From Clostridia bacterium (GTDB lineage: Bacteria > Bacillota > Clostridia > Oscillospirales > Acutalibacteraceae), in contig JAFQBE010000005.1 of assembly GCA_017416765.1 (NCBI GenBank), positions 43,877 to 107,876 on the forward strand: DNA of 64,000 nucleotides. The letters are read 5' to 3'. How positions within the stretch are numbered: the stretch's first letter is position 1; each line of letters opens with the position of its first letter. The position numbers and the translations under genes are program-made. The notes beneath the pieces were generated by a model, which saw nothing but the letters and a program-made list of their open reading frames with translations, made no database searches and was not told where the DNA came from. Positions 5,397-22,355 of this stretch are shown piece after piece.

Positions 5397-6536
5397 TTGA
5401 AAATTAAAAGAATTTTGCAGACTGTGGTGCTTGTGCTTGTAGCAGTATTCTTGTTCGCATCGTTTGCTGTGGCGGCGGATAAAGCACTTGTATATGCGGA
5501 CAAGATAAGCACCAAGCCAAATTCAATTTTCTTCGTGCCAATTAATATTAAAGGTAATCCCGGATTGATGGGCTTCAAGCTTACAGTCAGCTACGATAAA
5601 GAAGTTCTGTCACTTCCCGTGGTTACAAGGGGCACGGTAACGCAGGGCGGAATGTTAAATGACAGCATAGGAGTAAGCAAAGACGGCTCGTTTGATGTTG
5701 TGTGGACAAACGATTCCGCTATCAGTGATGACGGTACGCTGCTTGTGCTCAGCTTTAATGTTGATGATACCGATGTGAAAAACACAACGCTGAAATTATC
5801 CTACAGTCAGGATGATACGTTTGACGAAAGCTACAATGATGTTGTTTTTGACTGTAAAGATATTGAAATATCGTTTGGCGGCGAAGAAATATCAAACGCA
5901 TATGTAGGTGAGATAAAAGAGCCTGATTGCAGCGACATTATTGTTTCGGTTGATGCGGCGCTTAAAGAGCTGAACTTCGGCTTGATAAATGAAATCGATC
6001 CCGACCTTGCCGATAAACTGCTTGGATCGGCAAACAGCACGCTGAATGTGATGACAGGTAAGGAAAACCACTTTGCTGATGTTGATTCGCTTGTCAGCGG
6101 ATATAAAGATGCAGTTGCACAGGATTTTGTAAACACTTCGCTTGATGCGATTGACACCGATGTTATAGATTCCGTTATATCGGATGCACTTGTTCAGGTC
6201 GGTGCAGATTCAATCGAAAAAATCTCTGAAGATAAAAAGCAGAATTTTGTTCAGGCGGTTGAAAACGCATTGAAAAATCAGGCGAGCGATATTGACGGTA
6301 TATCCGATACGCTCAGTGTAGATGAAGCAATCGACGCAATTGCAGAGCTTGACGGCGAAAATGCAGAACAGATTGCACAAGGCGAAAAAGTTCCGCTGAA
6401 AGAGCCGGAAAACAGTACGGTGATAATTATTGCAGCAGTAAGCGTAGGCCTGATTGTAATAATCGCTGTTGCAGTAATAGCCGTTTTACATAAAAAACGC
6501 AAACTCAGAAATAACGAGGAGGCAATAAACAAATGA
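5397..6536 (+). CDS. membrane-anchored cohesin protein with helical stalk
   Basis: 379 residues, TTG start 8 nt after AAGGAG. Signal peptide about 1-25, cohesin domain about 28-160 (GNPGLMGFKLTVSYD, NDSIGVS, YSQDDTFDESYNDV), an acidic helical stalk 165-330, a transmembrane helix about 340-363 and a short basic cytosolic tail (KKRKLRNN), the usual inside-positive stop-transfer. It is a second, differently built surface receptor for dockerin proteins. Its last four bases overlap the start of the giant dockerin gene, which argues that anchor and ligand are made together. Confidence 0.85.
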   Translation: MKIKRILQTVVLVLVAVFLFASFAVAADKALVYADKISTKPNSIFFVPINIKGNPGLMGFKLTVSYDKEVLSLPVVTRGTVTQGGMLNDSIGVSKDGSFDVVWTNDSAISDDGTLLVLSFNVDDTDVKNTTLKLSYSQDDTFDESYNDVVFDCKDIEISFGGEEISNAYVGEIKEPDCSDIIVSVDAALKELNFGLINEIDPDLADKLLGSANSTLNVMTGKENHFADVDSLVSGYKDAVAQDFVNTSLDAIDTDVIDSVISDALVQVGADSIEKISEDKKQNFVQAVENALKNQASDIDGISDTLSVDEAIDAIAELDGENAEQIAQGEKVPLKEPENSTVIIIAAVSVGLIVIIAVAVIAVLHKKRKLRNNEEAINK

Positions 6537-9500
6537 AAAATACATTTAAACGAGTTGTAGCATCCCTTCTTGTTGCGGTAATGCTCTTTGGCTCCGCACC
6601 CATCGAAAGCCTTACAGGCATAGACTTTTCTTCGCTGTTCGCAATTGAAGCAGAAGCGGCAAAGGAAGATGAAGAGTTAAATGGTACTGTTTTGTTTACA
6701 TCCGTAGCAGCAGATGGATACGAAAATGCAATCTTCCCCATGGAATATATGTACATTAATCAAGGTGAATGTACAGGTAATCATACTTGGAAAAAATATA
6801 ATAGCGAGGGCGCATTTTCTCGTTACAGGTATGCTAACGATTTAACTGGAAAAGATGGCGAAATAGATGGCTTTTATGCACCCTTCACTTGTGTTATCAC
6901 TGACATTGATTGGGATACAGCTTCAAATTCTATTTTTTTAAAAAGTAAAGATCCTGTACATTATGCAGATGGTCGATTACAGCATATGTACATTACGATT
7001 GGACACGATTGGTATATTGATAATCTTATTGCTTTGGGGGAAGGTGCAGTTATTCCTCAAGGTACAGTTTTTTATCAAGAAGGTTGTAAAGGTATCGGCA
7101 CAGGAAATCATATTCATATGGAAATTTTCACAAGTATGGATTTGAAAAGCGCAAATTCTCCAGTGCATATTTACGATGCATTTTTTGTTCCTACTGAAGG
7201 TGTAAAAATAAAAAAACCGCTATATTCAAATTGGAGATATCTTTCTAAAGATGAATATACTGATAATCGAGATCCCTACCTCTCCCAAAAAGAATCCGAG
7301 TATGCTCAATATACCGCTAATAAATCTGGTTTCTATATGAAAAAAGAGCCGTTTGCTGATGCTGAAAATGCGGTTGAAGCTGCTGTTTCGAAGGGTCAGC
7401 AGTTTGTTGTAACCGGCTTCATCGGCGATAACGGTCACGGCAGTAAGTGGTATTATACCGAGTACAAGGGTGTTCAGGGTTGGATTTATTCCGGACACCT
7501 GAGCAAAAACCCACAGCAGACTCTTAAGCCCGTTGTTTTTGAGGCGAATTATCACGATAATAACAATGTTGCTGCAGCACTTGACGGAAGAACTCATACA
7601 AAGGGAAAAACTTTCTCTGTCAGAGGAACGCTGACATCTTACACAAAAAATATTGTTGATGTAAAAGCAACAATCTACAAAACGAGTTTGTTTGGTATTG
7701 TTACTTCAACCGCATGTACCGGTAATCTTACTAACAATTCAAAGATATGTACACTGAGTAAAAACGGAATAATCGACAACGCAATGACTTTCAAGTCGCT
7801 TGGTGAAGGTAATTATCGCTTGGAAATTTCTGTTAAGCTTGACGGAAGTAAGGATTACATTGTGGTCGAAAAGGCAAGCTTCTGCGTTGTGGATCCAAAT
7901 AAAACTTCACAAGCGGAAGAAATAATCGATGCTTTAAAAGTTATATTGAAAAAGACCGACGAACTTGTTAAACCTGTTGAGCCTGACAATAAGCCCTCAA
8001 CAGATAAAACTCCGGTTAATAATACTGTTTCTGCTCCAACCTACAATACCGGTGTATATCGTACAACATCAGCGGATAATCTCAATATACGCACCGGACC
8101 GGGTTCGGGCTATTCTTTGGCCACAAGCGCAATCCCCAGAAGCACAGAGGTTGAAGTTACGGAAATCTCCTCAAACGGCTGGGGCAAGACGGTTTATAAC
8201 GGAAAAACAGGTTGGATATGCCTGAAATATGCAACCTGGATAAGGGCACTTGAAACCGTTAAAAAGCCCGATGCGCCCACAGTGAAGCTTACAAGTGAAG
8301 CGAATGTTCCCACAGGAGCAATAGTTGGAGCAAGCTGGAACGCAGTTGCTAATGCAGATACATACACAGCCTATCTTAAGGATAGCAACGGAACGGTAGT
8401 TGATACATCCGAAGGTATTACCGGCAGAAGTGTTTCCTTCACCGTCAGCAATGCAGGTAAATATCATATTACTGTTTGCGCAGTAAACGAAAAATACAGC
8501 GTGGAATCCGTTGCTTCTTCAAGCTTTACTGCTCATGCACCGCTTACAGTCAGTTTTGTTGACTGGGATGGCAGAACAGAAACCAGAAGCGTTGCCTACG
8601 GCTCCAATGCTATAGCTCCTGATCCGCCCACAAGAGAGGGTTATACATTTACCGGCTGGGAAGGCAACTATGAAAAGGTTACAACCAACCTTACAATTCA
8701 CGCAGGCTATAAAATTAATACATACAATGTTAAGTTCATTGATCGTGACGGAAATCAGCTTGGCAGTACTCAGCGTATTAATTATGGTAGCAGTGCCGTT
8801 GAGCCCGAGGACAAGAATATTCCCACCGGTTGGGTATTTGTCGGTTGGGATACTGATGAATGGACAGAGGTAAAGCGCGATCTAACTGTTACCGCTTCCT
8901 ATAAGTGGGGTAACGATGAACTGCCCGTAATGGTTACCAACGTTAAGGCCGACCTTATTTCCGGCGGATATAATGTTACATTCAATGTTTCGTGTACGGA
9001 GGCTGTTACAAACGGCAGAGCTGTTGTTGCAATCAAAACGGCAGAAGGCAAGCTCATTTCCACAACCGAATCGGAGGCATTCAGTCTCGCAAGTGGCACC
9101 AGTGATTATCCCAAGAGTATTTATACTCCTGCCGATTCTCCCGCCTCTATTGCAGAGGTTTATGTTGTAAACAGCTTCAAGGATGCAGTTCCGATTTCTT
9201 CTTCAAAGAGCTGCACCATCGACCTGCATGACCAGTGGTCGGATTGGTCAGAAAACAAACCGGCAGACAACCTTTATAATGAAATTGAAACAAAGGTTCA
9301 ATATAAATACCGCGATAAACAGTTTACAACCGCAAGCTCAAAAACTCTTTCCGGTTGGACACATTACGACACAACAAGCACATCGTCACGTGGCAGTTCA
9401 ACCTCTTATGTCGGTGCAATAAATACGGATGCCCATAAAAGAACAGTGAGCACATGGACTGAAACCTTTTATAAAACTCAGTATAAGTATAACCATTACA

Positions 9501-12500
9501 GACATCCAACTCAGTACACAGTTTCTCCTGTTAAGTATGACAAGTATACCCTTCATGAAACAGCATGGATGGATAAGCCCTATGCTATATCAGGTACTTC
9601 AAATGCTGGCGGTGCAACAAAATACGGAAGTACCAGCAGCACAAAATGCAGTTGCGGTTGTACTCATTGGTACAATCAGCAAACCAGACAAGTAGAGGAT
9701 TATCACATCACCCACTATGATTATACAGATACTTATTACACCTATTATTTCTGGAAGTGGGGAGGCTGGAGCAACTGGAGCGACACTCCTGTATCTGCAA
9801 CATCAAATCGTGAGGTGAATACGAGACCTCTTTACAGATATAAGAACACCGGTTTTGCTGCCGAAGAAAATAAAGACGGCGTATTCAGAACGGTTTCAGG
9901 TACTCTTGATGCCTCACTTGCCGGTGAAGAGGCGACTCTCTTTATTTATAAGATTGATGAGGCTTCCGACTGGACTGGCGAATATGTGGGCCAGACGGTT
10001 ATCGCTGAGGACGGATCTTACAGTTTTACTTTTAAGCTCAGAGAAGAGCCTTCGATAAAAACCGGTGATTTCACAATGTCCTTAGGTATTGAGGGAACAA
10101 CAGAAGCCATCACCATTGGCACTATTTCAGCTCCCAAACCTGAATATACAGTAACTTTCTATAATGACGATGGTTCAGTTATTGAAACTCAGACCGTTAC
10201 TGAGGGTGAGGCCGCAGTAACTCCTGCAAACCCTGAAAAAGAGGGCTATACCTTTGTAGGCTGGGATTCCGATCTGAGTTGTATAGATTCCGATATTAAC
10301 CTTACCGCTCGTTATATCAAAAATAGCTACACAGTTGTTTTTGTTGACTGGAGCAATAAAACGGTTGTAACAAAAACATTTGAATACGGCGATTACCTTG
10401 TTCCGCCCGAAGCAGATGAGGTTGACGGATACGACCTTGTTCGGTGGGGTGATGTTGTTCTTGGCGAAACAGTTGTAAAGGACAATATGGTTATTACGGC
10501 TGAATTTGCAAAGAAGACCTATGAAGTTAATTTTTATGATTATGAGAATAACCTTGTCAGTACACAAATTGTTCCCTATGGCGAAACACCTTCGGCGGTT
10601 GATATAACCGATAAGGATAACTATGTTTTCATTGATTGGACCAGCTATGATAACGGTCTTGAAAACACAAGCGGAGCAGTAAATTTCTATCCGACCTTTG
10701 TCTTTGAGGAAACCGTTGCTGACCCTGTTTCAAGCCTCGAAAATGGCACGTATTATGAGACTCAGACAGTTGAACTCACAACGGAAACCGAAAATGCAAT
10801 AATCTATTACACGCTTGACGGTTCGGATCCCAAAGAGGGCGGCGAGGAATATGCAGGACCGATTACCATTGACAGAAGTGTTGAGCTCAGATACTATGCC
10901 TGCGCATTTGAGAAGAATGACAGCGAAGTTATGAACAACTACTACGCAGTCAATGCAGGCGTTATGACAAGTGACTGGATGGAGTATGCAGATATTCCGC
11001 AGTATGTTCTTAACGATACTGAAACCTACACCATAACCACCGACGAGGGATACAGTTGCAAGGATGTAATTGAAACCTCCGATTATAGCTATATTCTTCA
11101 GCTTGAAAACGAAGGCTGGACAAACAACGGCTCGGAATTTGGTGAATGGAGTGACTGGAGCCTTACAGAACCCATATTTGACGGACTGGCATATGAGGTC
11201 GAAACACGGCAGCCCGATCCGGTAACTGAGTCAAGATACAGGTATGTTCGTTTTAAATATCTTGATGAAAACGGAACCGCAGTTTACTCAGCCGAAGAGG
11301 TTGAAGGTGTTGAAGGCGAATGGGAAGAGCATATCAGTGAATCAAAGCTTTCTGTTGGCGGTTTCATCAGCGGAACAACGACACCTTACTATGCTCTCAA
11401 CGGAGAAAAATGGTTTAGTCAGACTCTTGTAAATGTTGATGTCATTCCGGACTATATGATGTACCGTTACAGAATGAAAATATTCAATCTTTTCAAATGG
11501 TCTGAATGGACTGTTGGTGAACCCTCTGCTGAAGAAACCAGAGAAACAAAAACAGCTGCAATTTATCAGTACCATATTCCCGAAATGTTCATAGTAAATA
11601 TTATTCCCGATTACTCGGTTTTCGGATCTGGAAGTCAGACCCAGATAATAGTTGCAAACGAAATGCTTGAAATTGATAAGAGAGATTACGATTATGAGGG
11701 TTATGATTTTCTCGGCTTCTTTACCGACCCTGAATTTGCAACATACTGGGATTATGAAACTCAAGCTGTTACAAGCGATCTTAATCTCTATCCAAAATAT
11801 TCAGCACATACCTTTGAAGTTATCTTTGTAGATTATGACGGAACTGTACTCAGCGAAGAAACTGTAGAATACGGCGAAAGTGCTCTTGCCCCCGACGTTG
11901 GCGAAAGAGATGGATATGTATTTATCGGTTGGGATACTGACAACCTTGACTATGTAACAGAAACAATGATTGTAACTGCCCAGTATGTAACGGAAGATGA
12001 ATACTGCAAGGTTTCACTAAGCCACAGCAAGTATAACCTTATGGTTGGTACATCGTTCACTCTTGTGGCTACAATAACACCTGAAAATGCCGAAAACAAA
12101 AACCTCAACTGGTATACAGACGACACCAATGTTGCAGTTGTAAACGATGAAGGTGTTGTAACCGGTGTTAGCGAAGGTGTTGCAATTGTAACCGTTGAAG
12201 CTGAAGCTACAGGAGAAATGGTCGAATGTATTGTTAGTGTTTCAAAAAATCCGTCAGAATCTCTTTGCTTGATTTCGGGATCAAAATTAGGTCTTGATGA
12301 AGAAAACGGACTGCTCAGAGGTGTCAGCAACACTGATTGCACGGTAGAATCAATTAAGGCCGAGTTTATGAACACTGACCTTGTGTTTACCGACAAAAAC
12401 GGCAATGCTCTTGAAGACACCGCTCTGGCAGGTACAGGTACTGTTATCAGCTTCTCAAACGGTGGCAAGGTTGTCGATGAGATTACCGTTGTTGTTACAG

Positions 12501-12685
12501 GCGATATGACAGGTGACGGACTTGTTAACAACAGAGATGCTGCGATGATCACAAGATATCTGGTTGAAAAAGAAACTGCAGATTTTGCACAGATGGTTGC
12601 AATTGATGTAAACGGTGACGGATACATAAACAACCGTGATGCATCGATGGTTTCAAGATATCTTGTCGGTAAAGAAACTATCTGA
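6533..12685 (+). CDS. giant secreted dockerin protein with M23-like, SH3b and InlB-type repeats
   Basis: 2050 residues. Signal peptide about 1-43; LytM/M23-like domain about 60-215 with the HIH motif at 193-195 and Asp103, but Arg99 where M23 enzymes have the first zinc-binding His; SH3b domains near 258-325 and 505-575; Fn3-like about 580-665; several InlB B-type repeats (GYTFTGW, GYTFVGWD, GYVFIGWD); recurrent Trp-rich segments (WSDWSE, GWSNWSD, GEWSDWS); a chitobiase-type C domain (YYTLDGSDP); Big_2 about 1830-1905; and a C-terminal type-I-like dockerin about 1988-2050 with two calcium loops (DMTGDGLVNNRD, DVNGDGYINNRD). Probably wall- or mucin-interacting and docked on the cohesins beside it. 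With the Arg substitution, peptidase activity is uncertain. Confidence 0.85.
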   Translation: MKNTFKRVVASLLVAVMLFGSAPIESLTGIDFSSLFAIEAEAAKEDEELNGTVLFTSVAADGYENAIFPMEYMYINQGECTGNHTWKKYNSEGAFSRYRYANDLTGKDGEIDGFYAPFTCVITDIDWDTASNSIFLKSKDPVHYADGRLQHMYITIGHDWYIDNLIALGEGAVIPQGTVFYQEGCKGIGTGNHIHMEIFTSMDLKSANSPVHIYDAFFVPTEGVKIKKPLYSNWRYLSKDEYTDNRDPYLSQKESEYAQYTANKSGFYMKKEPFADAENAVEAAVSKGQQFVVTGFIGDNGHGSKWYYTEYKGVQGWIYSGHLSKNPQQTLKPVVFEANYHDNNNVAAALDGRTHTKGKTFSVRGTLTSYTKNIVDVKATIYKTSLFGIVTSTACTGNLTNNSKICTLSKNGIIDNAMTFKSLGEGNYRLEISVKLDGSKDYIVVEKASFCVVDPNKTSQAEEIIDALKVILKKTDELVKPVEPDNKPSTDKTPVNNTVSAPTYNTGVYRTTSADNLNIRTGPGSGYSLATSAIPRSTEVEVTEISSNGWGKTVYNGKTGWICLKYATWIRALETVKKPDAPTVKLTSEANVPTGAIVGASWNAVANADTYTAYLKDSNGTVVDTSEGITGRSVSFTVSNAGKYHITVCAVNEKYSVESVASSSFTAHAPLTVSFVDWDGRTETRSVAYGSNAIAPDPPTREGYTFTGWEGNYEKVTTNLTIHAGYKINTYNVKFIDRDGNQLGSTQRINYGSSAVEPEDKNIPTGWVFVGWDTDEWTEVKRDLTVTASYKWGNDELPVMVTNVKADLISGGYNVTFNVSCTEAVTNGRAVVAIKTAEGKLISTTESEAFSLASGTSDYPKSIYTPADSPASIAEVYVVNSFKDAVPISSSKSCTIDLHDQWSDWSENKPADNLYNEIETKVQYKYRDKQFTTASSKTLSGWTHYDTTSTSSRGSSTSYVGAINTDAHKRTVSTWTETFYKTQYKYNHYRHPTQYTVSPVKYDKYTLHETAWMDKPYAISGTSNAGGATKYGSTSSTKCSCGCTHWYNQQTRQVEDYHITHYDYTDTYYTYYFWKWGGWSNWSDTPVSATSNREVNTRPLYRYKNTGFAAEENKDGVFRTVSGTLDASLAGEEATLFIYKIDEASDWTGEYVGQTVIAEDGSYSFTFKLREEPSIKTGDFTMSLGIEGTTEAITIGTISAPKPEYTVTFYNDDGSVIETQTVTEGEAAVTPANPEKEGYTFVGWDSDLSCIDSDINLTARYIKNSYTVVFVDWSNKTVVTKTFEYGDYLVPPEADEVDGYDLVRWGDVVLGETVVKDNMVITAEFAKKTYEVNFYDYENNLVSTQIVPYGETPSAVDITDKDNYVFIDWTSYDNGLENTSGAVNFYPTFVFEETVADPVSSLENGTYYETQTVELTTETENAIIYYTLDGSDPKEGGEEYAGPITIDRSVELRYYACAFEKNDSEVMNNYYAVNAGVMTSDWMEYADIPQYVLNDTETYTITTDEGYSCKDVIETSDYSYILQLENEGWTNNGSEFGEWSDWSLTEPIFDGLAYEVETRQPDPVTESRYRYVRFKYLDENGTAVYSAEEVEGVEGEWEEHISESKLSVGGFISGTTTPYYALNGEKWFSQTLVNVDVIPDYMMYRYRMKIFNLFKWSEWTVGEPSAEETRETKTAAIYQYHIPEMFIVNIIPDYSVFGSGSQTQIIVANEMLEIDKRDYDYEGYDFLGFFTDPEFATYWDYETQAVTSDLNLYPKYSAHTFEVIFVDYDGTVLSEETVEYGESALAPDVGERDGYVFIGWDTDNLDYVTETMIVTAQYVTEDEYCKVSLSHSKYNLMVGTSFTLVATITPENAENKNLNWYTDDTNVAVVNDEGVVTGVSEGVAIVTVEAEATGEMVECIVSVSKNPSESLCLISGSKLGLDEENGLLRGVSNTDCTVESIKAEFMNTDLVFTDKNGNALEDTALAGTGTVISFSNGGKVVDEITVVVTGDMTGDGLVNNRDAAMITRYLVEKETADFAQMVAIDVNGDGYINNRDASMVSRYLVGKETI

Positions 12686-12838
12686 ATTTAAATTGTTCCG
12701 AAGAGCCCTTTTCGGCTTATCGGATATGGTATGTGGGACAAAGAGTTTCTTTGTCCCCTGTACCGACATAGTCTGAAAGAGAAACCTTTCAAGCTGTGTC
12801 GGTGCAGTTGCATTTTTAATACCGGGAGGTAATGTTTA
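12686..12838 (+). promoter_or_regulatory. structured intergenic leader before scaffoldin gene
   Basis: Three hairpins: CCGAA/TTCGG (12698-12715), a 10-bp GGGACAAAGA/TCTTTGTCCC (12735-12757) and an 11-bp CTGTACCGACA/TGTCGGTGCAG (12758-12807) that contains an inner TGAAAG/CTTTCA helix. None has a good T tract, so they look like processing or stability elements, not terminators. No riboswitch class was recognised. The scaffoldin SD GGGAGG follows. Confidence 0.5.
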
Positions 12839-15800
12839 ATGAAAAATAAGCTTTTAAAATATTTAACATTTGCGCTTTCGATTGCCGTGATATTTTCGGC
12901 TGTTCCGCTGAACTGCAATAATTCTCTAATGTTTTCGGCTGTTGCAGCTGAAGAAGAGCAGGATTCAACCTCTAACCCGACTTATTCGGGCACCTGCGGT
13001 GAAGACCTTACTTGGACGTTATGCGCCGGTGTACTAACAATTTCCGGTACGGGAGAAATGGACTATTGGTCCTCAATAAGCTCTGTTCCGTGGTATTCGT
13101 ACCGCTCAGAGATCAATGAAGTTAATATTGATGACCGTGTAACCACCTTAGGCAGATATTTTTGCTATGAATGTACCGCTTTAACCCAAGTGGATCTACC
13201 TGAAAGCCTTACCCTGATAGATGCTTGTGCGTTCAGCGGTACAAGCTTAATTGAAATTACAATTCCGGATACAGTAGAAACTATTGGTATGAAAGCCTTT
13301 GAAAGCACTAATATTTCCTCTTTTTTTGTGCCTAAAAGCGTATCATCGTTGGATGAAAGTTCTTTCGATAGTAAAAAACTTGCTGAGATTATTGTTGACC
13401 CTGAAAATAGTTTTTATGCTTCAAAGGATTCTGTTTTATTTGATAAAAATATCACTAAACTTATTCAGTATCCGTTTAAAAATACCCGTACAAGCTATAA
13501 AGTTCCTAATAGTGTAACCGTAATTTCAAATGGAGCTTTTAAATCTGCACAAAATTTACTTTCGATCACTCTTCCTGAGGGCTTGATTTCAATTAAGGAT
13601 TATGCGTTTGAATATTGCACATCCCTTACTGAGATAACTTTGCCCGGTACTTTGGCCAAGTTGAATAATTCAATGGCTATTTTTTCCAATTGTTTTTCGC
13701 TTGAAAAAGTTGTAATAGAAGAAGGCGTTACTTATCTTGGCGGTTATACGTTTATTTCGTGTGATTCACTTGAAGTTGTAGTTCTTCCACAAACATATTC
13801 TATAATTGGCGAATATATGTTTTATGGTTGTAAAGCATTGAAAACTGTTGCTTTTTCAAACAATGTTATACGTATCGGTTCAAATGCTTTCGGAAGCTGT
13901 GATTCTTTAAACTCTGTTTATTATTCAGGCTCAAAGGATGATTGGGGTTCGATTACAATTGACAGTGGTAATTCAGCGTTAAATTCTACAGCAAAAACAT
14001 TTGATGCAAAAACTTACCAACTGTCATATTATTCTGATGCATCAGAACAGATGCTATGTTCTCAAACAAAATATAGCGGAGTTACTTATCCGTTGACTGG
14101 CACGATTCCTCAAAAACAGATTGAAATTGTCCTTGATGCAAATGGCGGCAAAGTTGCTGAAAGCACATTTGCTTATGATGCCGAATTTGTAAAATGGAAT
14201 TCTTCACCGGATATGAGCGGAACAGCCTTTTGTTCTTATTCGAACTTTGCAAACGACGAGAATACGGAATTATATGCTCAATGGAACTACCAAACGGCAG
14301 AAAGACTCCCTGTTCCTTACAGAGAAAATTATGTTTTTTGCGGTTGGTATACTGCTGGAAGCGACGGTAAAAAAATGGGAGAGTTAGATGATCTTTCTCA
14401 GGACATGACGCTTTTAGCTCAGTGGGAGCGTCCGAAGTTTACTGTCAGCTTTGATTCAAACGGATCGGATGAGGTTTTTGACGACATAACAGTAATTTAT
14501 TCTGGTCTTTATGGCTCCTTGCCAATACCGGCAAGAAATGGTTATACCTTTGAGGGATGGCATACATCCGTTAATAATGGAACGCTCATTACCGAGCAAA
14601 CCACTGTTGAAATCACTGATGATCAAGTGCTTTATGCGGTTTGGTCTCCGAATGTATATACTGTAAGCTTTGATCCCGGTGAAGGCGAGTGCAATATATC
14701 AGATAAAAATATAGAATTTGATGATTGCTACGGACAGTTGCCTGTTCCGACACGTATCGGCTATACATTTCTTGGTTGGTATAAAACACAGTCTTACAAT
14801 GAACTTATAACGGAGGAATCAATAGTTTCCGTTTCCGGTGATCATTATCTCTATGCATTATGGTCAGCTAATGAATATACGGTTATGTTTGATCCCGGCG
14901 AAGGTGAGTGCGACATAACTGAAAAAACAGTTATTTTTGATACTTATTATGGTGAGCTCCCTGTTGCTGAAAGAACCGGATATAATTTTCTTGGCTGGTT
15001 TGATTCTCAAGGTAATCATATAACACATGACTCGCTTGTTAAAATAACTCAATCGCAGACATTCTATGCATCATGGGATGTGTTAGTTGTTACAGTGAAT
15101 TTCGACTCTGATGACGGAGAGTGTTCTTTTTCTAAAAAAGATATTGAGTATGGTCAGACTTACAGCGAACTGCCACAAGCATACAAAGATAAAATGCTGT
15201 TTGTAGGTTGGTATACAGGTCAGAACGATGGAGAAAAGATAAACGAATCAACGATAATGACTCAAACTCAAAGCCATACCTTGTATGCGAAGTTTAAGAG
15301 CTTTACTTTATCTGTAAATGAATTGCCGATTAAAACAAATTATTATTTATTTGAAAAACTTGATTTATTCGGATTATCGTTGTTGGTTTACACAGAAGAT
15401 GGAGAAAGCATACTGATTGATGACGGATTTACAGTTTCGCAGCCTGATATGAATACAACCGGAATTAAAGAAGTTACGGTTTCGTTTAACGGAATCAGTT
15501 GTTCCTTTGAAATTGAAGTTTTAGATTTTGCAGTTACCAGACTCGAAATTAGCAATCCCATTACCAAAAATGAATATTTTGTTGGAGAATATTTGGATAC
15601 AGAGGGTTTGGAAATTATGGCGGAGAATGAAAATGGGATAAAGGTTAAAATTCCCACATCATTTGTTGATTTTTCTGTTGAGCAATTTTCAAGTCCCGGC
15701 AAAAAACTTATCAAGGTTTATTATGGTGGTAAATATACAACATTTTTTGTTACTGTAAAAGAAAAAGATATTACAGCAATTGAAATTACAACCCTTCCAA

Positions 15801-17866
15801 ACAAAACGACATATACAGTCGGTGATGATTTTGACGCGACGGGAATGGAATTGACGGCAAGTTATAATGATTCAAGCACAAAAATTATTACAAGCGGCTA
15901 CACAATAAACTGTAATATGGAAGCTGCCGGAACAGAGATTGTCACTGTATCGTATACAGAAAACGGGATTACGGTCACCACAGATTTCACGATTACGGTA
16001 AATGAAAAGCAGGCCGACGGTAAAACGACAATAGCGGCCTCTTATGCTACTGTTCAAGCAGGAGAAACCGTGGCGATTCCTTTTATTGTGGAGCAAAATA
16101 CAGGCTTTATGGGTTTTGCCATTGAAATAAGCTATGATGATGCTGTTTTGGCTCCGGTAAGTGTTTCAGCAGGAGAGATACTCTCATCAGGTAATCTCAA
16201 CGACAGCATTGGCGGTGTTGTTGAAAGCGGAACACTCAAAGTGGTGTTCTATGCTTCCAAAAACATAACTGCTGACGGAACGCTTTTCACAGTTGAGTTT
16301 GAGGCTATTAAGGATGTGTCCAGTCAGCTGAGTAAAGTGGAAATCAAGGCGATTGAAGCAGACTGTTTTGATGAAGATTGGAACACGGTTTACTTTAATA
16401 CTTCTCCGTTTGAAATTCAGATTATTTCAAGCGTTGGAACTGTGCCGTATATTGCTTTTGCGGATGCTTTTGCAGATGAATCAAATAGAATAATTCTTCC
16501 GCTCAAGCTTAAAAATATGCTTGGGGTGACAGAGTTTAAATTTGAACTTGTGTGTGATAGAGATGTTATGTTGCCCAATACGGTTATTTGCAGCGGTTTG
16601 CCTGATGGAAATGTTGAACTAACTCATTCCGGTAAAAAGTATTATCTGAAGTGGTCAGGTACAAAAATTGTTCAGGATGAAGTAGTGTTAAACATATATT
16701 TTGAGGCTTCAGAGTTTGCTTCGGGCGAAACAGATGTAACAGTTGCTTGCATTATTCCCGAGAATATCGATGATATCGGTACAGTGGTTTCTATCAATAA
16801 GCTGCTGCCCAAAACAACAAGACTTGAAACTGACCTTGCAATAACAAGTGCAGGTGGTACTGTTAGAATTCCGGTTTATATAAAGTATAATAACGGAATT
16901 ATGGGATTTGGACTTACTGTTGAATATGACGATAGCATACTTACTCCCATTTCAGTCAGTAGAGGCGAAATACTAACAGATGGATTAATGGATAACAATA
17001 TTTCCAGGGCATCCGGAAGCTTTAAAATTGTGTGGAACAATACTGCTAACCTTACAAAGGATGGAGAGCTTTTGGTTCTTGAATTTGCCGTTGCATCAAA
17101 TATAGATATTTGTGTGTCAGATATTTCATTTGCTTATTCCCAACAGGATACATACAACGAGGCTTGGCAAGATGTTGAACTTAAAATTGAGAACACCGCT
17201 GTACTTATTGATCCGATTTATGTTGTGCCACAATCGGGTGCAGTTGAAAACAACGGCTATGTCTACGGGCTTAAAGCCGGTCTCGAAAGTCTTGATGGTT
17301 ATTTTGAAACAGTCAGCGAAGACATAGAATTTTATGCTATTGCTTCGGCTTCGAGGTTTGGCAGCGGTTCAGTTGTCGGAGTTCAGTACAATGGAAATAC
17401 TGTGGATGTTTATAAAACTATTCTATTCGGCGATGTCAACGGTGACGGATGGTATGACGGTGAGGATGCATTCCTTGTAAATCTCATCGTTGCAGGTCTG
17501 CTTACAGAAGAAAATCTTCCCGATTATATGTGGAAAGCGGCCGACTGTAACCATGACGGTTTAATCAACGAGGTTGATATGGATTTGCTTATGGGCGCAG
17601 GCTTGAGAAAGAATGACATCGATCAGAATGTGGCTCAGGAAGAACTAATAACACAAACTGCATATATTGAATATGCTTCCCTCATTGACCAATCCGCAGG
17701 GCTCAATGTTCAGCTCGATACAGACGATGCAGAGATGGGGACAACAGATACCGAAAACAGAACCAAACAGCCTGCTGACGAAATCAATATTGAAACAATA
17801 ATTGCTACAATATTTGATTTTATCAAAAAGCTATTCACACTTGTGTTTTTATTCATAATTAAATAA
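12839..17866 (+). CDS. scaffoldin-like protein: LRR, InlB repeats, cohesins, dockerin, membrane tail
   Basis: 1675 residues. Signal peptide about 1-34; BspA-type leucine-rich repeats about 45-370; InlB/Flg_new repeats about 390-800 (GYTFEGWH, GYTFLGWY, GYNFLGWF); Ig-like Big_3 modules about 820-1060; cohesin-type modules starting near 1060, 1198 (divergent) and 1326; a dockerin-like pair of calcium loops about 1530-1600 (DVNGDGWYDGED, DCNHDGLINEVD); and a hydrophobic C-terminal tail 1651-1675. Cohesins 1 and 3 carry the cluster's GFMGF/GIMGF and NDS/DNN motifs. Carrying both cohesins and a dockerin is the definition of an adaptor scaffoldin; the LRR/InlB part suggests adhesion to host or particle surfaces, not cellulose (no CBM seen). 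Confidence 0.85.
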   Translation: MKNKLLKYLTFALSIAVIFSAVPLNCNNSLMFSAVAAEEEQDSTSNPTYSGTCGEDLTWTLCAGVLTISGTGEMDYWSSISSVPWYSYRSEINEVNIDDRVTTLGRYFCYECTALTQVDLPESLTLIDACAFSGTSLIEITIPDTVETIGMKAFESTNISSFFVPKSVSSLDESSFDSKKLAEIIVDPENSFYASKDSVLFDKNITKLIQYPFKNTRTSYKVPNSVTVISNGAFKSAQNLLSITLPEGLISIKDYAFEYCTSLTEITLPGTLAKLNNSMAIFSNCFSLEKVVIEEGVTYLGGYTFISCDSLEVVVLPQTYSIIGEYMFYGCKALKTVAFSNNVIRIGSNAFGSCDSLNSVYYSGSKDDWGSITIDSGNSALNSTAKTFDAKTYQLSYYSDASEQMLCSQTKYSGVTYPLTGTIPQKQIEIVLDANGGKVAESTFAYDAEFVKWNSSPDMSGTAFCSYSNFANDENTELYAQWNYQTAERLPVPYRENYVFCGWYTAGSDGKKMGELDDLSQDMTLLAQWERPKFTVSFDSNGSDEVFDDITVIYSGLYGSLPIPARNGYTFEGWHTSVNNGTLITEQTTVEITDDQVLYAVWSPNVYTVSFDPGEGECNISDKNIEFDDCYGQLPVPTRIGYTFLGWYKTQSYNELITEESIVSVSGDHYLYALWSANEYTVMFDPGEGECDITEKTVIFDTYYGELPVAERTGYNFLGWFDSQGNHITHDSLVKITQSQTFYASWDVLVVTVNFDSDDGECSFSKKDIEYGQTYSELPQAYKDKMLFVGWYTGQNDGEKINESTIMTQTQSHTLYAKFKSFTLSVNELPIKTNYYLFEKLDLFGLSLLVYTEDGESILIDDGFTVSQPDMNTTGIKEVTVSFNGISCSFEIEVLDFAVTRLEISNPITKNEYFVGEYLDTEGLEIMAENENGIKVKIPTSFVDFSVEQFSSPGKKLIKVYYGGKYTTFFVTVKEKDITAIEITTLPNKTTYTVGDDFDATGMELTASYNDSSTKIITSGYTINCNMEAAGTEIVTVSYTENGITVTTDFTITVNEKQADGKTTIAASYATVQAGETVAIPFIVEQNTGFMGFAIEISYDDAVLAPVSVSAGEILSSGNLNDSIGGVVESGTLKVVFYASKNITADGTLFTVEFEAIKDVSSQLSKVEIKAIEADCFDEDWNTVYFNTSPFEIQIISSVGTVPYIAFADAFADESNRIILPLKLKNMLGVTEFKFELVCDRDVMLPNTVICSGLPDGNVELTHSGKKYYLKWSGTKIVQDEVVLNIYFEASEFASGETDVTVACIIPENIDDIGTVVSINKLLPKTTRLETDLAITSAGGTVRIPVYIKYNNGIMGFGLTVEYDDSILTPISVSRGEILTDGLMDNNISRASGSFKIVWNNTANLTKDGELLVLEFAVASNIDICVSDISFAYSQQDTYNEAWQDVELKIENTAVLIDPIYVVPQSGAVENNGYVYGLKAGLESLDGYFETVSEDIEFYAIASASRFGSGSVVGVQYNGNTVDVYKTILFGDVNGDGWYDGEDAFLVNLIVAGLLTEENLPDYMWKAADCNHDGLINEVDMDLLMGAGLRKNDIDQNVAQEELITQTAYIEYASLIDQSAGLNVQLDTDDAEMGTTDTENRTKQPADEINIETIIATIFDFIKKLFTLVFLFIIK

Positions 17867-17884
17867 CTTATATAAACTCATTAA

Positions 17885-17961
17885 CACCCGATTGAGCGTA
17901 AAAACTCAGTCGGGTGGTGATCTTTAACCCCTGAACGAAATGGCACCCGTTTCAGGGGGTT
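17885..17961 (+). terminator. tandem terminator hairpins after scaffoldin
   Basis: CACCCGATTGAG/CTCAGTCGGGTG (17885-17916) is followed by AACCCCTGAA/TTCAGGGGGTT (17926-17961). T tracts are modest (gatcttt, aattta), but two strong stems immediately after a long operon support termination. Confidence 0.6.
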
Positions 17962-17995
17962 AATTTATGCCTAAAATCAGATAAAAACACAGTTT

Positions 17996-18685
17996 TTGCT
18001 AAAAATCAGCCCGTCTTTAGCAAGAAAAGTGCAATTGAATTTTGTAGTGTCAGGTATTCTTACATTATTTGTATGATTAATGAATCACGATAGGAGTAAA
18101 AATCACTGCGCAAGTGATTGAAAAATCCCGTTTTAGTTCAACCGTCAGGGATAGAAATTGCGAAGGTGGTTGAATGAAATAAATCAAGAAGGGAGTAAAG
18201 CGGTATGCACTTTCGGTCCGAACATAGCAGACGAAACCAAATAGCCTCATAAAGGACACGGTGTCATTGAGGTGTGCAGCAAAAGTGTGCTGCGTTCGTT
18301 TGCGGAAAAGTGCGTACCCGATGTAATCCGAACAGCTTGTGTATATGCAAGGGTGTTCGGAGCAGCAGTGAGAATGTCAGCGAAAACATTGCCTGTGCTG
18401 GTGCTTTGTTTGAGCTGGCACTTCTCACAGACACGGCAGCTTTTCGAAAGAAAAGAGCCGGTCTTACTAACGGTTATTCAGGTTATTAACCGGAATAACC
18501 AGTTAGTAGGGCGAATAAACGGTTTCCGTATATACGGAATTCGTTTTGGCGTTATGGTTTGCATCGACCTTAACGGATGGCTTGTTCAGAACAAGTTATC
18601 GCTTCCGGATGAAGCCCCCGAACAGTTTAACACTAATTTTTTAGTGGGCGTTTTGATAAAGTGACGTTGCTATGCAGAACACTTT
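17996..18685 (+). ncRNA. candidate large structured noncoding RNA
   Basis: This 690-nt stretch is unusually dense in strong stems. Hairpins: TTGCTAAA/TTTAGCAA (17996-18023); AATCACT/AGTGATT (18101-18119); a possible H-type pseudoknot ATCCC/GGGAT with TTCAACC/GGTTGAA (18125-18174); CCTCA/TGAGG with inner GACA/TGTC (18245-18272); GCAGC/GCTGC (18276-18293); CCGAACA/TGTTCGG (18328-18360); a 14-bp helix with one bulge (18368-18428); a stem capped by a GAAA tetraloop (18429-18464); a 15-bp helix with one bulge (18465-18508); TTCCGTATATACGGAA (18524-18539); CTTGTT/AACAAG (18581-18595); GCTTC/GAAGC; CACTAA/TTAGTG (18631-18646); AAAGTG/CACTTT (18658-18685). It directly precedes a tyrosine recombinase. 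Size and mobile context recall ROOL or GOLLD RNAs, but I cannot confirm a family. Strand is inferred from the downstream gene. Confidence 0.55.
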
Positions 18686-18714
18686 CTGAATATTGAGGAA
18701 AGGAGAAAAAGGCC

Positions 18715-19677
18715 TTGAGTAAAAAGAAAAATAAGCATTACAAGCAGAGTATTTCAGGCAAGCTCAGAAACGATGCTGCGAAACATTTTAAGAAGTATGA
18801 AAACAACGTAACAAGGGCGGCATACATAAAGAACTATGACAAATTCATCAAGTTCTGCCGTGAGCAGTACGACTGCAAAACAAAGAAAGAATGTGCCGAG
18901 CATATTGAGGATTACATTGAGTACCTGAAAGAAAAGGAGCATACGGCAAGCACTATTCATACATATATGGCTCCGGTCGGACTCTACCACGGGATTCCGC
19001 TTAATGTGATGAATCTGCCTAAGAGGTATGCGGCAGAAAACACCCGTTCCAGAAAAGAACGTAAACATTATCGTTCGGACAGTGATGAAAACAACAGCAA
19101 GTATTCAAGAACGGTTGAGCTGCAGAGATGCATTGGAATCCGCAGAAATGAGTTGAAGAACCTTCGCGGCAATGACCTGAAGGAAGATGAGTCAGGTTAT
19201 CTTTGTGTCGTCGTTCGCAGAGGTAAGGGCGGTAAGGAAACCTATCAGCGTATCTTACCAGAAGATATCGGCACAGTAAAACAGTTTTTTGACGGTTCAG
19301 AAAACAAAGTGTTTTCAGCACAGGAAATGAACAACAGTATCGATTACCACCATATGAGAGCTGAACAGGCAGTCAGAGCATACAACTACTATCTTGACAG
19401 AATCAATAATGAGCCGGGATACAGAAAGCAGCTTGAGGATGAGATTATACAGCGTTGGAATGAAAAGTGCATTGATAAAAAGACGAAGAAGCCCAAACAT
19501 CTGGATAAGAAAGAAATCCGTGGCAATTATTTCGTGCGCGAAAAGAATAAACAGCTTGCACTCGAAAAAGGACTGCCGATTGTCTATGACAGACTGTCGC
19601 TGATGGCAGTTTCGATCTATCACTTGTCTCACTGGAGACTCGACGTAACCGTCTCAAACTATATGCTCGCGGTGTGA
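18715..19677 (+). CDS. tyrosine recombinase/integrase
   Basis: 320 residues, TTG start 9 nt after AAGGAG. An N-terminal SAM-like core-binding domain (about 20-105; YEN-NVTRAAYIKNYDKFIKF) is followed by a catalytic domain with the first Arg in GIRRNELKNL, a Lys-containing beta-turn (RRGKGGKETYQR), HHMRAEQA as the H-x-x-R box, and a late LSHWRLDVTVSNYML segment that supplies the second His and the Tyr nucleophile. A helical insertion of about 80 residues lies between the H-x-x-R box and the Tyr segment. All catalytic positions appear present. It lies between the structured region and a serine recombinase, so it is part of an integrative element, possibly acting on hairpin DNA or a nearby att site. 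Confidence 0.85.
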   Translation: MSKKKNKHYKQSISGKLRNDAAKHFKKYENNVTRAAYIKNYDKFIKFCREQYDCKTKKECAEHIEDYIEYLKEKEHTASTIHTYMAPVGLYHGIPLNVMNLPKRYAAENTRSRKERKHYRSDSDENNSKYSRTVELQRCIGIRRNELKNLRGNDLKEDESGYLCVVVRRGKGGKETYQRILPEDIGTVKQFFDGSENKVFSAQEMNNSIDYHHMRAEQAVRAYNYYLDRINNEPGYRKQLEDEIIQRWNEKCIDKKTKKPKHLDKKEIRGNYFVREKNKQLALEKGLPIVYDRLSLMAVSIYHLSHWRLDVTVSNYMLAV

Positions 19678-19775
19678 GTTCAGGATGAAAATAAAATATG
19701 GGATAAAATATCCTGTTGTTTGTATCATATAGGGAAAATTCTACAAAACTATATTTAAGGAGGTGATAATACCTT

Positions 19776-20048
19776 ATGATGTTGGAAGTCTGCGAGAATA
19801 ATCGCATAGCATATTTCTGGCTTACTTGTGAAGAAAAAGCTAATGAAGAATTGCAGAATATTCTGCAAGACATATATAAAGAATGGAAACAAAAGGGATA
19901 CAAGGTTTGCACTTTCGTTTCCGGAGGCGGAGATCTTGTGGACTTGACAAAAGAGCTTTTAATTCATAATAAGCAGGTGCTTGCAAAGAAGGCTGTTAAA
20001 GAGGCTGAGCAGGTGATTCATAGTGACTATACAATGGCAGAAAGATAA
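19776..20048 (+). CDS. small hypothetical protein of the recombination module
   Basis: 90 residues, preceded by a near-perfect SD AAGGAGGTGAT with a rather long spacer of 12 nt. The sequence looks like a compact alpha/beta protein: strand (RIAYFWLTC), helix (ANEELQNILQDIYKEWKQ), strand (KVCTFVSGG), then a helix (LVDLTKELLIHNKQ). No family recognised. Similar small frames sit between recombinase genes in clostridial integrative elements; a role as excision or directionality factor is only a guess. The 98 bp before it hold no clear promoter. Confidence 0.6.
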   Translation: MMLEVCENNRIAYFWLTCEEKANEELQNILQDIYKEWKQKGYKVCTFVSGGGDLVDLTKELLIHNKQVLAKKAVKEAEQVIHSDYTMAER

Positions 20049-20088
20049 TTCTGCTGTACATACAAATATTTACTTTTGTAAAACAGTT

Positions 20089-20115
20089 GAAAAAAAGAAT
20101 AATACGTGTTACAAT
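20089..20115 (+). promoter_or_regulatory. extended -10 promoter of serine recombinase
   Basis: TGTTACAAT (TGn-TACAAT, 20107-20115) with TTGAAA at 20089-20094 (15-bp spacer, short). Because the GTG at 20106 falls inside the -10, translation must start further downstream, at the ATG pair 20166/20169. Confidence 0.6.
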
Positions 20116-20168
20116 GTTGTTCAGAAAATGTTGGTATTTTACAAACAACATTGAACGGAGAAGATATG

Positions 20169-22355
20169 ATGAGTAAAAAACGAATTGCAGGTTATCTGCG
20201 AATTTCGGTTGATACCGAACTCGACAGAGATAACACATCCATCGAAAATCAGCGTGAGATAATAAAGAATTACGTTGAAAGAACCTTTCCTGATGCCGAA
20301 CTTGATTTCTATGAGGACCGTGACCGAAGCGGTTATACATTCGAGCAGAGGGAAAACTATCAGCTGATGAGACCGAAGCTGATGAACGGATATTATAATA
20401 TTCTTATCATCAAGGACTTTTCCCGTTTCTCTCGTAGAAACGGGCGAGGTCTTGTTGAGCTTGAGGAACTGCGTGATGCAGGAGTCCGTATTATTTCAAT
20501 CGGTGACAATATTGACTACCCGACCTATGACGATTGGATTCAGATTCAGATGAGATTCTTCGTCAACGAAATGCCTGTTACGGATGCTTCAAAAAAGGTT
20601 AAGGGAGTTATAAATACCAAACAGCAGGAAGGCAAGTGGATTTGTGCCGTTCCCTACGGTTACTACATCACAAACACAAAGAAAATGACCTTTGAGGTTG
20701 ATGAAAAAGCGGCTGAAGTAGTCAGAAAGATTTTTGAGCTTTATATAGACGGCTGGGGATATAAAAAGATTGCTAATTTCTTGACGGATGAGGGTATCCC
20801 GACTCCCAGAATGATCGAAAAGGAACGCCGTGAGGCTGACGGAGCAGAAACCAAAATCAGAGCAAGCACTGTGTGGGCGATTCCGAGCATCAGCGGCATT
20901 CTGACAAACGATTTCTATATCGGAACACTTCGACAGAAAAAATATACCCGAACCAAAATCAACGGTTCGGATAAAAAACTTGACTCGGATGAAAACATCG
21001 TTTTTGAGAATAACCACGAAGCAATTATTGATGTCAGAACTTTTGCGAAAGCACAGGAGCAGCTCAAGGCAAGGTCAAAATCAAATTACCGTGGTGTGAA
21101 GAAATATGATACATCGTATTCGGGGTTCTTGTTCTGCGGCGACTGTGGAAGTCCGATGTTTTCGATGAGCAGACCTGATTTAGCACCTGCCTATACTTGT
21201 GGTACATATCACAAACGTGGGCTTAAGGGGTGCACATCTCATCACACGAGAACAGATACGCTTGATATAATGATTAAGAAATATATTGAGCGTGTTATGA
21301 TGAATTCGGAAAGAATGATTGCCGAGCTCGAACAGGCTATCAGAAATGAGCCTGAAATGATGAAAAAGTCGAAATCTTCAATCGAGCTGCTCGAAGTAGA
21401 TTTGGCGAAAGCAAAGGAAGAGTTCAAAGCTACCAAAAAGCAGAAAATCAGGGAATTGATGAAGCACGAAGACAATCGGGAGCTTATTGAAGAAACCTTT
21501 GCTGAGATAGAGGAAGAACTCCAGAAGAAGATTGAAGGGCTTGAAAAACAAATTGCTTTTGCTTCTGAACATCGCAATATGACTATTCAGGTGAACAGGA
21601 TTGCAAAAACAGCAATTGAAATCTTCCGTGAAATTCTGGCAAAGGATAAGCTTGATAAAACTGATTTATCGCTGATTGTTGATAGAATTACGGTGTTTGA
21701 AAATAACATTGAAATTCAGCTTAAAGCCGATATAGCGATGTTGCTTGAATGCGGAACGGTGACGAAAGAACTACTTGAAGAATCGGATTTTGTAGGTAAA
21801 GCCGTAAATTTTAAGTGGGACACCGAGAGTATCGCAAAAGCCACAATAGTCCAGAAGGCTAATCATCGGACGGACAAGGCTTTCGGTGTCAATGTTGTAT
21901 GTGAAGGCGACCCGTTGGAGATTTTTACTGCGCCGGACGGGGAAGTTATTTTTAAAAAGTATTCGCCGGTGGGTGAACTTTCTACGCTTGCCACGCAGTA
22001 TGCAGAGGTGCTTCACAGGGGTACGAATCTGCCGATTCTTATCTGTGACCGCGACAGAGTTATAGCCTGCGCGGGCATACCGAAAAAGGAAGTGCTTGAC
22101 CGTCAGCTTACTGACGAGCTTGAGGACTATATGGAGCGTCGTGAAAACTTTGTTGCAAAAACTGCAGGCGAGGGTATGACCGCGGCAACAGGTATAAGCC
22201 GTATGGCAACGGTAGCTTCGCCGATTATTGCGGCAGGTGATGTCTCGGGCGCGGTGGTACTGCTTGGCGATGAAAGCATGAGCGCACCTACGCAGACGGA
22301 TATAAAGCTTGTGCAGGTTGCGGCAAACTTCCTCGGCAGACAGATGGAGGAATAA
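20169..22355 (+). CDS. large serine recombinase fused in frame to SpoVT C-terminal region
   Basis: 728 residues from the ATG 8 nt after GGAG. Residues 1-130: serine resolvase domain with the nucleophile in AGYLRIS and the KDFSRFSR helix. Then the recombinase domain, zinc ribbon (FCGDCGSPM, YTCGTYH, GCTSHH) and a long coiled coil, typical of large serine integrases, up to about nt 21902. From 21903 (Glu-Gly-Asp-Pro-Leu-Glu-Ile-Phe) the sequence becomes SpoVT: 'DGEVIFKKYSPVGEL', 'PILICDRDRVIACAG', and a terminal 'VQVAANFLGRQMEE', covering the swapped-hairpin end and the GAF-like domain. Base composition becomes more GC-rich at the switch. The natural reading is an att junction inside spoVT, not a designed fusion. 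Confidence 0.88.
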   Translation: MSKKRIAGYLRISVDTELDRDNTSIENQREIIKNYVERTFPDAELDFYEDRDRSGYTFEQRENYQLMRPKLMNGYYNILIIKDFSRFSRRNGRGLVELEELRDAGVRIISIGDNIDYPTYDDWIQIQMRFFVNEMPVTDASKKVKGVINTKQQEGKWICAVPYGYYITNTKKMTFEVDEKAAEVVRKIFELYIDGWGYKKIANFLTDEGIPTPRMIEKERREADGAETKIRASTVWAIPSISGILTNDFYIGTLRQKKYTRTKINGSDKKLDSDENIVFENNHEAIIDVRTFAKAQEQLKARSKSNYRGVKKYDTSYSGFLFCGDCGSPMFSMSRPDLAPAYTCGTYHKRGLKGCTSHHTRTDTLDIMIKKYIERVMMNSERMIAELEQAIRNEPEMMKKSKSSIELLEVDLAKAKEEFKATKKQKIRELMKHEDNRELIEETFAEIEEELQKKIEGLEKQIAFASEHRNMTIQVNRIAKTAIEIFREILAKDKLDKTDLSLIVDRITVFENNIEIQLKADIAMLLECGTVTKELLEESDFVGKAVNFKWDTESIAKATIVQKANHRTDKAFGVNVVCEGDPLEIFTAPDGEVIFKKYSPVGELSTLATQYAEVLHRGTNLPILICDRDRVIACAGIPKKEVLDRQLTDELEDYMERRENFVAKTAGEGMTAATGISRMATVASPIIAAGDVSGAVVLLGDESMSAPTQTDIKLVQVAANFLGRQMEE
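21897..21915 (+). other. inferred recombination junction (att) inside spoVT
   Basis: SpoVT homology begins at GAAGGCGACCCG (21903). Upstream codons encode recombinase C-terminal sequence that has no counterpart in SpoVT. Serine integrase genes commonly end or begin at attP, so the crossover core should lie within a few bases of 21903. The matching junction with the 5' part of spoVT is not in the window. Confidence 0.6.
21903..22355 (+). pseudogene. spoVT: spoVT 3' fragment (sporulation regulator, 5' end missing)
   Basis: 150 residues equivalent to SpoVT from about residue 34 to the end. SpoVT is an AbrB-like regulator of forespore sigma-G genes: N-terminal AbrB swapped hairpin for DNA binding, C-terminal GAF-like domain. 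The missing part is the start Met and the key 'GIVRRIDDLGR' DNA-binding segment. I find no copy of that segment in the window. The fragment has no stops or frameshifts, which fits a gene that can be restored by excision better than a decaying pseudogene. The usual end (FLGRQMEE) is intact. Confidence 0.85.

Follow-up and report, generated by a model that had tools for sequence, protein, structure and literature searches.

Why should the gene for a serine recombinase run, without a break, into the second half of a sporulation gene? The question is raised by a stretch of 64,000 nucleotides from a Clostridia bacterium (assembly GCA_017416765.1, contig JAFQBE010000005.1, here C10), referred to below as the window (C10:43877-107876, forward strand), in which a frame of 728 amino acids joins a recombinase to the C-terminal part of SpoVT. 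An earlier note on this DNA had proposed an intervening element in spoVT. The sequence evidence presented here points to a 24-kb element that splits spoVT and would restore the gene exactly on leaving. Probably it is a mobile element that was integrated by its own large serine recombinase at a fixed codon of spoVT and whose excision would mend both genes, which would make it a reversible gate on sporulation. Related genomes, their contigs and the recombinase loci found in them are given as G, C and L numbers.

The chimeric frame and the missing half of spoVT

The chimeric frame runs on the plus strand from an ATG at window position 20169 to a stop codon at 22355; the mechanical open reading frame (ORF) begins at a GTG at 20106. 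In profile searches its product showed Resolvase, Recombinase and Zn_ribbon_recom domains followed by SpoVT_C, and the first three, in this order, identify a large serine recombinase. The earlier note had placed the switch from recombinase to SpoVT at Glu-Gly-Asp-Pro-Leu-Glu-Ile-Phe, and at the GAA codon at 21903 the frame does pass from one protein to the other, in frame and free of stops.

The AbrB-like N-terminal part of SpoVT is absent from the window, as had been noted, and was located outside it, on the same contig and strand at C10:41838-41938, 2,038 to 1,938 bases ahead of window base 1. A SpoVT profile search of the whole genome gave matches at three places, namely the right part in the window, this 5′ half (C10:41841-41942, profile positions 1-34) and a place on C29 where profile positions 1-56 only were matched in a 92-amino-acid frame, a short AbrB-like paralogue. 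Full-length SpoVT was not found by this search of the genome, which is 98% complete.

A 16-bp direct repeat, GTGAAGGCGACCCGTT, was found inside the 5′ half (C10:41923-41938) and again at C10:65777-65792, corresponding to window positions 21901-21916. Deletion of the 23,854 bp between equivalent points of the two repeats yielded a SpoVT protein of 179 amino acids, MKATGIVRRIDDLGRVVIPKEIRRTMRIREGDPLEIFTAPDGE...RQMEE, without an internal stop. The left 1,954 bp of the element (C10:41923-43876) lie immediately ahead of the window. The search that the earlier note had called for, for a 5′ fragment of spoVT that breaks off at the same codon, was thereby successful, with an identical junction of 16 bp and an open joined frame, and its suggestion that removal of an element could restore spoVT agrees with the joined flanks, which read as full SpoVT in frame. 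A split sporulation gene, short flanking direct repeats, a frame restored by exact removal and an encoded serine recombinase are among the features of skin-like elements, and these four were observed here.

Occupied and empty sites in related genomes

Among 11 genomes of the same genus, the present one included, four (G004, G005, G008 and G010) had full-length spoVT. When the locus was aligned with these uninterrupted genes, a comparison that the earlier note had also proposed, their DNA covered both halves, with the core in the overlap. Genome G001 had spoVT split at the same codon; its right end was 89.5% identical to that of the present element over 1.7 kb, and most of the left-end DNA compared was unmatched. 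The remaining five genomes had the short AbrB-like paralogue only. Additional short matches to the 5′ region were observed on C47 of G001.

A SpoVT search of 300 genomes of the family gave matches in 271, and 24 genomes, picked for a best E-value suggesting an incomplete SpoVT, were searched again. Frames joining the recombinase to SpoVT_C could be read in the present genome, in G001 and in eight of these 24, ten genomes in all. Flank contigs stopped at the core in three more of the 24 (G016, G053 and G113), and the other 13 showed full-length or divergent SpoVT, partial matches, or the left half only (G092 and G226).

Genomes of named species were scanned with an alignment of six recombinases, and the best 80 of 373 relatives were kept. 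By profile, 72 of these best 80 continued in frame into SpoVT_C, 67 of them with a complete domain. The fused loci included those of Ruminococcus bromii 5AMG, R. flavefaciens 007c, ATCC 19208 and YRD2003, R. bicirculans 80/3, Anaerotruncus massiliensis AT3 and Eubacterium sp. MSJ-21. The kept 80 loci and the ten genomes overlap (L128, for example, lies on a G157 contig), and their counts are not additive. The same fusion was present on the human-gut scaffold MT836658; phage and plasmid records held no near relative, all best places being below 60% identity.

Thirty genomes chosen from these sets were searched for both halves of spoVT. The two halves lay on one contig, 11.6 to 78 kb apart, in 18 genomes, and a match the size of the 5′ half lay on another contig in six, where one of the junctions was read. 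The rest had the right half only (one genome), intact spoVT (three, of which G329 also had a match to the 5′ half), the paralogue only (one) or an irregular arrangement (one, G328).

Separate histories of recombinase and spoVT

Between the present element and that of G001, synonymous divergence (dS) was 0.29 for the recombinase and 1.46 for the 3′ part of spoVT. By protein identity, the spoVT part of the present genome was closest to the intact gene of G010 (89.9%) and that of G001 to the intact gene of G004 (91.9%). Among 69 fused genes, the present one included, the proportion of synonymous differences (pS) of the recombinase was below 0.45 in 29 pairs, and pS of SpoVT_C was higher in 28 of these 29; the extreme pairs gave 0.014 vs 0.551, 0.028 vs 0.817 and 0.047 vs 0.679. 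The sole exception, L151/L156, fits shared inheritance. Conversely, the pairs L115/L116 and L136/L159 had similar spoVT and distant recombinases. As the recombinases resemble one another, for the most part, far more closely than do the spoVT copies of their hosts, the elements move between species, and the differing histories imply that insertion at this codon has occurred many times.

The ratio of nonsynonymous to synonymous divergence (dN/dS) was considered as a sign of selection after insertion and was rejected, the recombinase being much younger than spoVT in most close pairs. A table of dN/dS over all pairs was dominated by saturated pairs and was not used; its medians were higher in fusion pairs (0.50 vs 0.11 at dS 0.7-1.2 and 0.35 vs 0.24 at dS 1.2-2.0).

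A probable exchange of gene ends at the junctions

The left ends of the elements continue in the spoVT frame past Glu-Gly-Asp and stop at 22-32 codons in 26 of 30 tails, while the other two frames of the same left-end DNA, taken as a control, stopped within this range in 4 of 60 cases. A conserved TLT at the start of the tails partly reflects an arm of the attachment site of the element (attP). The assignment as a native tail is based on the residues beyond this arm, where many tails share a pattern such as E-x-F-x-x-A-M-x-x-x-x-x-R, and on the near-constant position of the stop. By these marks the left end looks like the carrier of the recombinase's own C-terminal tail, and the circular form of the present element would encode a recombinase of 619 amino acids. 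The attP arms form an inverted repeat, TGTCAATGTT...GGYGACC...AACATTGACA, and a core of GGCGACC or GGTGACC was present at the right end in 65 of 76 cases and at the left end in 24 of 29.

The attP site would accordingly be positioned inside the 3′ end of the recombinase gene, and the attachment site of the host (attB) would be formed by the Glu-Gly-Asp-Pro codons of spoVT. Integration would cut two genes and swap their ends, giving the N-terminal half of SpoVT with the recombinase tail on the left and the recombinase with SpoVT_C on the right; excision would make spoVT and the recombinase gene whole again.

Possible signs of excision and a candidate excision factor

In G091, the contig with the 5′ flank and the contig with the left end of the element overlapped by exactly 99 bp, as did the recombinase contig and the contig with the 3′ part of spoVT, and both flank contigs ended at the core. 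These overlaps have the form of an assembly-graph branch arising from occupied and empty sites in one sample. Flank contigs also ended at the core in G016, G053 and G113, and such breaks in four assemblies suggest a mixture of sites with and without the element.

Just upstream of the recombinase lies a small gene, relatives of which were found upstream of the recombinase and on the same strand in 69 of the 81 loci with at least 700 bases of upstream sequence, within 300 bases in 62; the profile used was built from 12 of the elements, so that these loci are not all independent. In a comparison of 15 elements, the small gene and the recombinase were the most frequent gene families, each occurring in 13 of the 15; for G316 and R. 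bicirculans the DNA compared ends before the recombinase is reached, and in G326 the small gene is found, instead, close to the left end. The small protein matched no Pfam or NCBIfam family above cut-off and no PHROG, and its confident structural model (pLDDT 94.5) gave no match at E <= 0.001 in fold searches. From its position and by analogy with SprB and GirX, the small protein appears to be the best candidate for a recombination directionality factor.

Upstream regions were compared with the consensus strings of sigma-A and other promoters, with single-base shuffles as controls throughout. Sigma-A-like sites with at least 11 matches occurred upstream of the recombinases in 14 of 80 relatives vs 1 of 400 shuffled regions; the site of the present recombinase, with 10 of 12, falls below this threshold and was not part of this set. 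Upstream of the small gene, the sigG-like score was slightly raised (11/66 vs 25/330 shuffled). A sigF-like enrichment at the same place (24/66 vs 6/330) is probably due to ribosome-binding sites and was not used. Upstream of spoVT, a sigG-like motif was found in 41 of 73 regions vs 26 of 365 shuffled, the match in the present genome being weak, and a sigE-type motif was likewise enriched (41/73 vs 43/365).

Sporulation context

The present genome gave a spoIVA match above its cut-off and a sigG-family match (E 2.2e-122) that did not reach the cut-off of its family, as was true of every one of the 20 genomes searched; spoIVA was kept in 17 of the 19 others searched, split and intact genomes taken together. 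In Clostridioides difficile, spoVT is reported to be under sigma-F and sigma-G control, and a spoVT mutant to form no heat-resistant spores (PMC3789822). R. bromii L2-63 is reported to sporulate; in strain 5AMG, 3 of 73 sporulation genes are reported missing (PMC5814915). A sigma-factor match with two in-frame stops was observed in R. bromii 5AMG (G306, C36:294433-295116), and a sigG match with one TAG in G097 (C75:22318-23073).

A proposed reversible gate and its alternatives

Both halves of spoVT, the core repeat, the restored frame, the empty sites, the conserved left-end tail and the repeated insertion at the same codon can all be read from the DNA, and the excision predicted from them would make the element a reversible gate on sporulation that is carried by mobile DNA. 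Excision would be carried out by the recombinase, assisted by the neighbouring small protein as excision factor, the cell would finish its spore only afterwards, and the element would re-enter after germination or transfer.

Several observations weigh against this reading. No excised circle was found, and none of 85 related recombinase frames had a native tail (three end before the junction). The mixed assemblies could have come from a mixture of strains instead of excision. The low dN/dS of split spoVT may predate recent insertions. In the motif scan of upstream regions the small gene showed no established sporulation promoter, and the present element is weaker than its family both in its promoter match and in its left tail, which at 38 codons is one of the four outside the range of 22-32. 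The split genomes G315 and G316 had no spoIVA match, and some carriers may not sporulate; moreover, loss of SpoVT is reported to cause a severe sporulation defect in Bacillus cereus and not in B. subtilis (PMC5061766). Eight of the kept 80 loci (L119, L120, L122, L123, L152, L173, L180 and L181) lacked SpoVT_C; of these, L123 is cut by a contig end, three are in genomes with intact spoVT, and the others are at secondary or irregular sites.

The in-frame fusion in 72 of the 80 kept loci would also be expected if the chimera of recombinase and SpoVT_C were an ordinary host protein with a function of its own, formed without any insertion. The earlier note had named two findings that would speak against an element, a full-length spoVT elsewhere in the genome with no matching 5′ fragment, and the same chimera as a normal protein in many unrelated genomes; such a spoVT was not found, and the chimera was found in many genomes. 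A wide spread does not refute insertion, since 5′ halves, or matches of their size, were present in most genomes searched and the histories of recombinase and spoVT differ. A matching 5′ half with the same junction and relatives with uninterrupted spoVT also exist, and elsewhere the recombinase ends within a few residues of the junction (L119 and L122) or joins another reading frame (L120), for which reasons an ordinary chimeric host gene was rejected as highly improbable. Alternatively, the element could be a dead end, a selfish integrative element for which spoVT is a convenient, conserved attB, its carriers being asporogenous and their spoVT decaying. The insertions look recent, with recombinase pS mostly much below that of spoVT, excision is predicted from sequence, and two carriers had no spoIVA match, all of which would suit such an element; both halves are nevertheless open and in frame in widely different hosts, spoIVA was kept in the present genome and most others searched, and the contig breaks at the core suggest that empty and occupied sites occur together. 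This explanation is considered unlikely, though much less so than the ordinary chimera.

The strongest competitor, with a chance somewhat below even, separates excision from sporulation: the element would be lost at low frequency in growing cells, for transfer, and the few cured cells would sporulate, as in phase variation. The enrichment of sigma-A-like sites upstream of the recombinases, the mixed assemblies and the relaxase or Mob genes of several elements are consistent with this, and the yin element of yabG is reported to be excised at all times tested (PMC10747680); the small gene could, on the other hand, give control by stage, as reported of SprB for SPbeta (PMC4191935, PMC5595907). 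The reversible gate could also take a stricter form, in which excision would occur in the forespore, the circle would be carried in the spore and re-enter after germination, and the swap of C-terminal ends would serve as a switch of state, the recombinase fused to SpoVT_C differing in activity or direction from the free one with its own tail. If SpoVT is needed in the forespore, excision there would remove the element from the inherited genome, and the circle would have to ride in the spore. That forespore excision would be inherited unless the element re-enters is the most interesting point of this form, which is considered unlikely, slightly more so than the dead end. SPbeta is reported to be excised, during sporulation, in the mother cell only, with the result that the prophage is retained in the spore (PMC4191935).

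Comparison with known elements

Like skin (sigK), SPbeta (spsM), vfbin (spoVFB) and vrin (spoVR), the present element encodes its own serine recombinase and interrupts a sporulation gene whose frame is restored by precise excision. The targets of those four are reported to be mother-cell genes and the elements to have phage-related genes (PMC4191935), whereas spoVT is controlled in the forespore in C. difficile (PMC3789822) and the present element, whose excision is predicted, showed no phage structural gene in the ORFs searched. The spoVT elements match the skin-like class in anatomy and differ from it in a target under forespore control in C. difficile, in the exchange of gene ends, in some mobilization genes and in spread. 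The gin element in gerE of B. cereus ATCC10987 is reported to be likewise non-phage, with a serine recombinase and an additional factor (GirC and GirX) and a short core repeat (PMC5595907); gerE, however, encodes a mother-cell regulator and gin has three recombinases, while the spoVT elements are widely spread in Clostridia and show one recombinase, whose gene is split by integration. The yin element in yabG of Clostridium botulinum is also an element in a sporulation gene, with a 14-bp core and with intact gene and circle detected by PCR (PMC10747680). It is reported to be unique to one isolate (PMC10747680), in contrast to the spoVT elements, which dozens of species were found to carry. With integrative mobilizable elements that use large serine recombinases, the spoVT elements share Relaxase or Mob genes, present in several of them, and type I restriction cargo; the present element differs, as no relaxase was found in the 16 of its 17 selected ORFs that were searched in Pfam.

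A spoVT-intervening element was not reported among the matches listed in a search of the open literature, a scope outside which supplements, preprints and most subscription papers fall, and the matches naming spoVT that were examined use the gene otherwise. The main text of a survey of serine integrases (PMC10083194) gave no AbrB, and sporulation is named there only in the references.

Spores are the route of many strict gut anaerobes between hosts. A family of elements in dozens of species, the cultured R. bromii, R. flavefaciens, R. bicirculans and A. massiliensis included, could decide which cells sporulate, and the absence of spoVT from some annotated genomes of apparent spore formers could be explained by it. 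Should spoVT belong to the forespore in these hosts, the family would break the pattern of rearrangements confined to the dying mother cell. Recombinases with recognisable attachment sites and one shared target could also serve as integration tools for Clostridia.

Other features of the element

The features of the window are listed in Table 1. The cargo of the present element also includes an HD-domain protein with weak dGTPase similarity.

Table 1. Features of the spoVT-intervening element and its right junction (window positions)
Feature	Position	Strand	Basis or remark
Right 21,900 bp of the 23,854-bp spoVT-intervening element	1..21900	+	Direct repeats; empty site in four same-genus genomes
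DUF6809 protein (696-1025) and Peptidase_S24-like protein (971-1504)	696..1504	-	Cargo
GHKL histidine kinase, LytTR response regulator, HTH_3 regulator	1864..4510	-	Cargo
Four large proteins (231, 379, 2050 and 1675 aa), three with cohesin, dockerin, LRR, Big or List_Bact_rpt	4689..17866	+	Cargo
Small conserved gene (90 aa), candidate recombination directionality factor	19776..20048	+	Just upstream of recombinase
Possible sigma-A-like recombinase promoter	20087..20115	+	TTGAAA, 17 bp, TACAAT; 10/12 consensus bases
Large serine recombinase gene, element part	20169..21900	+	Three domains; phrog_95 integrase E 3.4e-92; alignment with 9 other fusions
Right junction core GTGAAGGCGACCCGTT, identical to C10:41923-41938	21901..21916	+	Contains GGYGACC common to most elements
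3′ part of spoVT (SpoVT_C), in frame from recombinase	21903..22355	+	TIGR02851 positions 29-180 E 2.9e-42; PF15714 E 9.1e-40

Ten ORFs of the element showed no phage structural genes when compared with PHROGs, the matches being to integrase, invertase, regulators and two families of unknown function; for the kinase pair and the two largest ORFs, the search for phage genes was made in Pfam alone. As structural genes were lacking in the ORFs searched, identity as a prophage was rejected. Genes of the relaxase type were found in other elements, namely Relaxase in A. massiliensis and G157, MobA_MobL in G315 and Mob_Pre in G316, and the R. bromii element encodes a NikA or MobC protein. Type I restriction-modification genes were profiled as cargo in A. 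massiliensis and have relatives in R. bromii, G157 and MSJ-21; the MSJ-21 element also carries a gene for a Fic protein.

The chimeric frame (20169-22355) also gave NCBIfam matches to CcrA, CcrB and CcrC, the staphylococcal cassette recombinases, and to XisF, far below the cut-offs. Between the promoter-like site and the start codon of the recombinase lies a perfect inverted repeat, CAATGTTGTT...AACAACATTG (window 20112-20121 and 20144-20153), which is possibly an operator or a leader hairpin.

Loci L119, L120 and L122 are probably secondary insertion sites; the L120 frame runs into what we take to be an endonuclease/phosphatase-like protein. In L173, L180 and G328 the recombinase continues into the 5′ half of spoVT in reverse complement, as if the element were inverted, and in G328 the 3′ half is preceded by an ordinary-looking arm. 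Tandem extra 5′ halves of spoVT with recombinase-type tails were observed upstream of the main copy in G315 (C11:288498 and 300397) and G335 (C12:4438 and 11964), and ahead of intact spoVT in G196 (C77:12144-14717, L264-L266).

Close to the right end, still within the element (window about 17854-18740 and 18715-19677), there is a repeated sequence that was found again just upstream of the 5′ half of spoVT (C10 about 40834-41689) and upstream of the intact spoVT of G005 (L026, 6712-7597). It holds an ORF starting MSKKK(N)KHYKQSISGKL, with a weak match, below cut-off, to a phage-integrase N-terminal domain.

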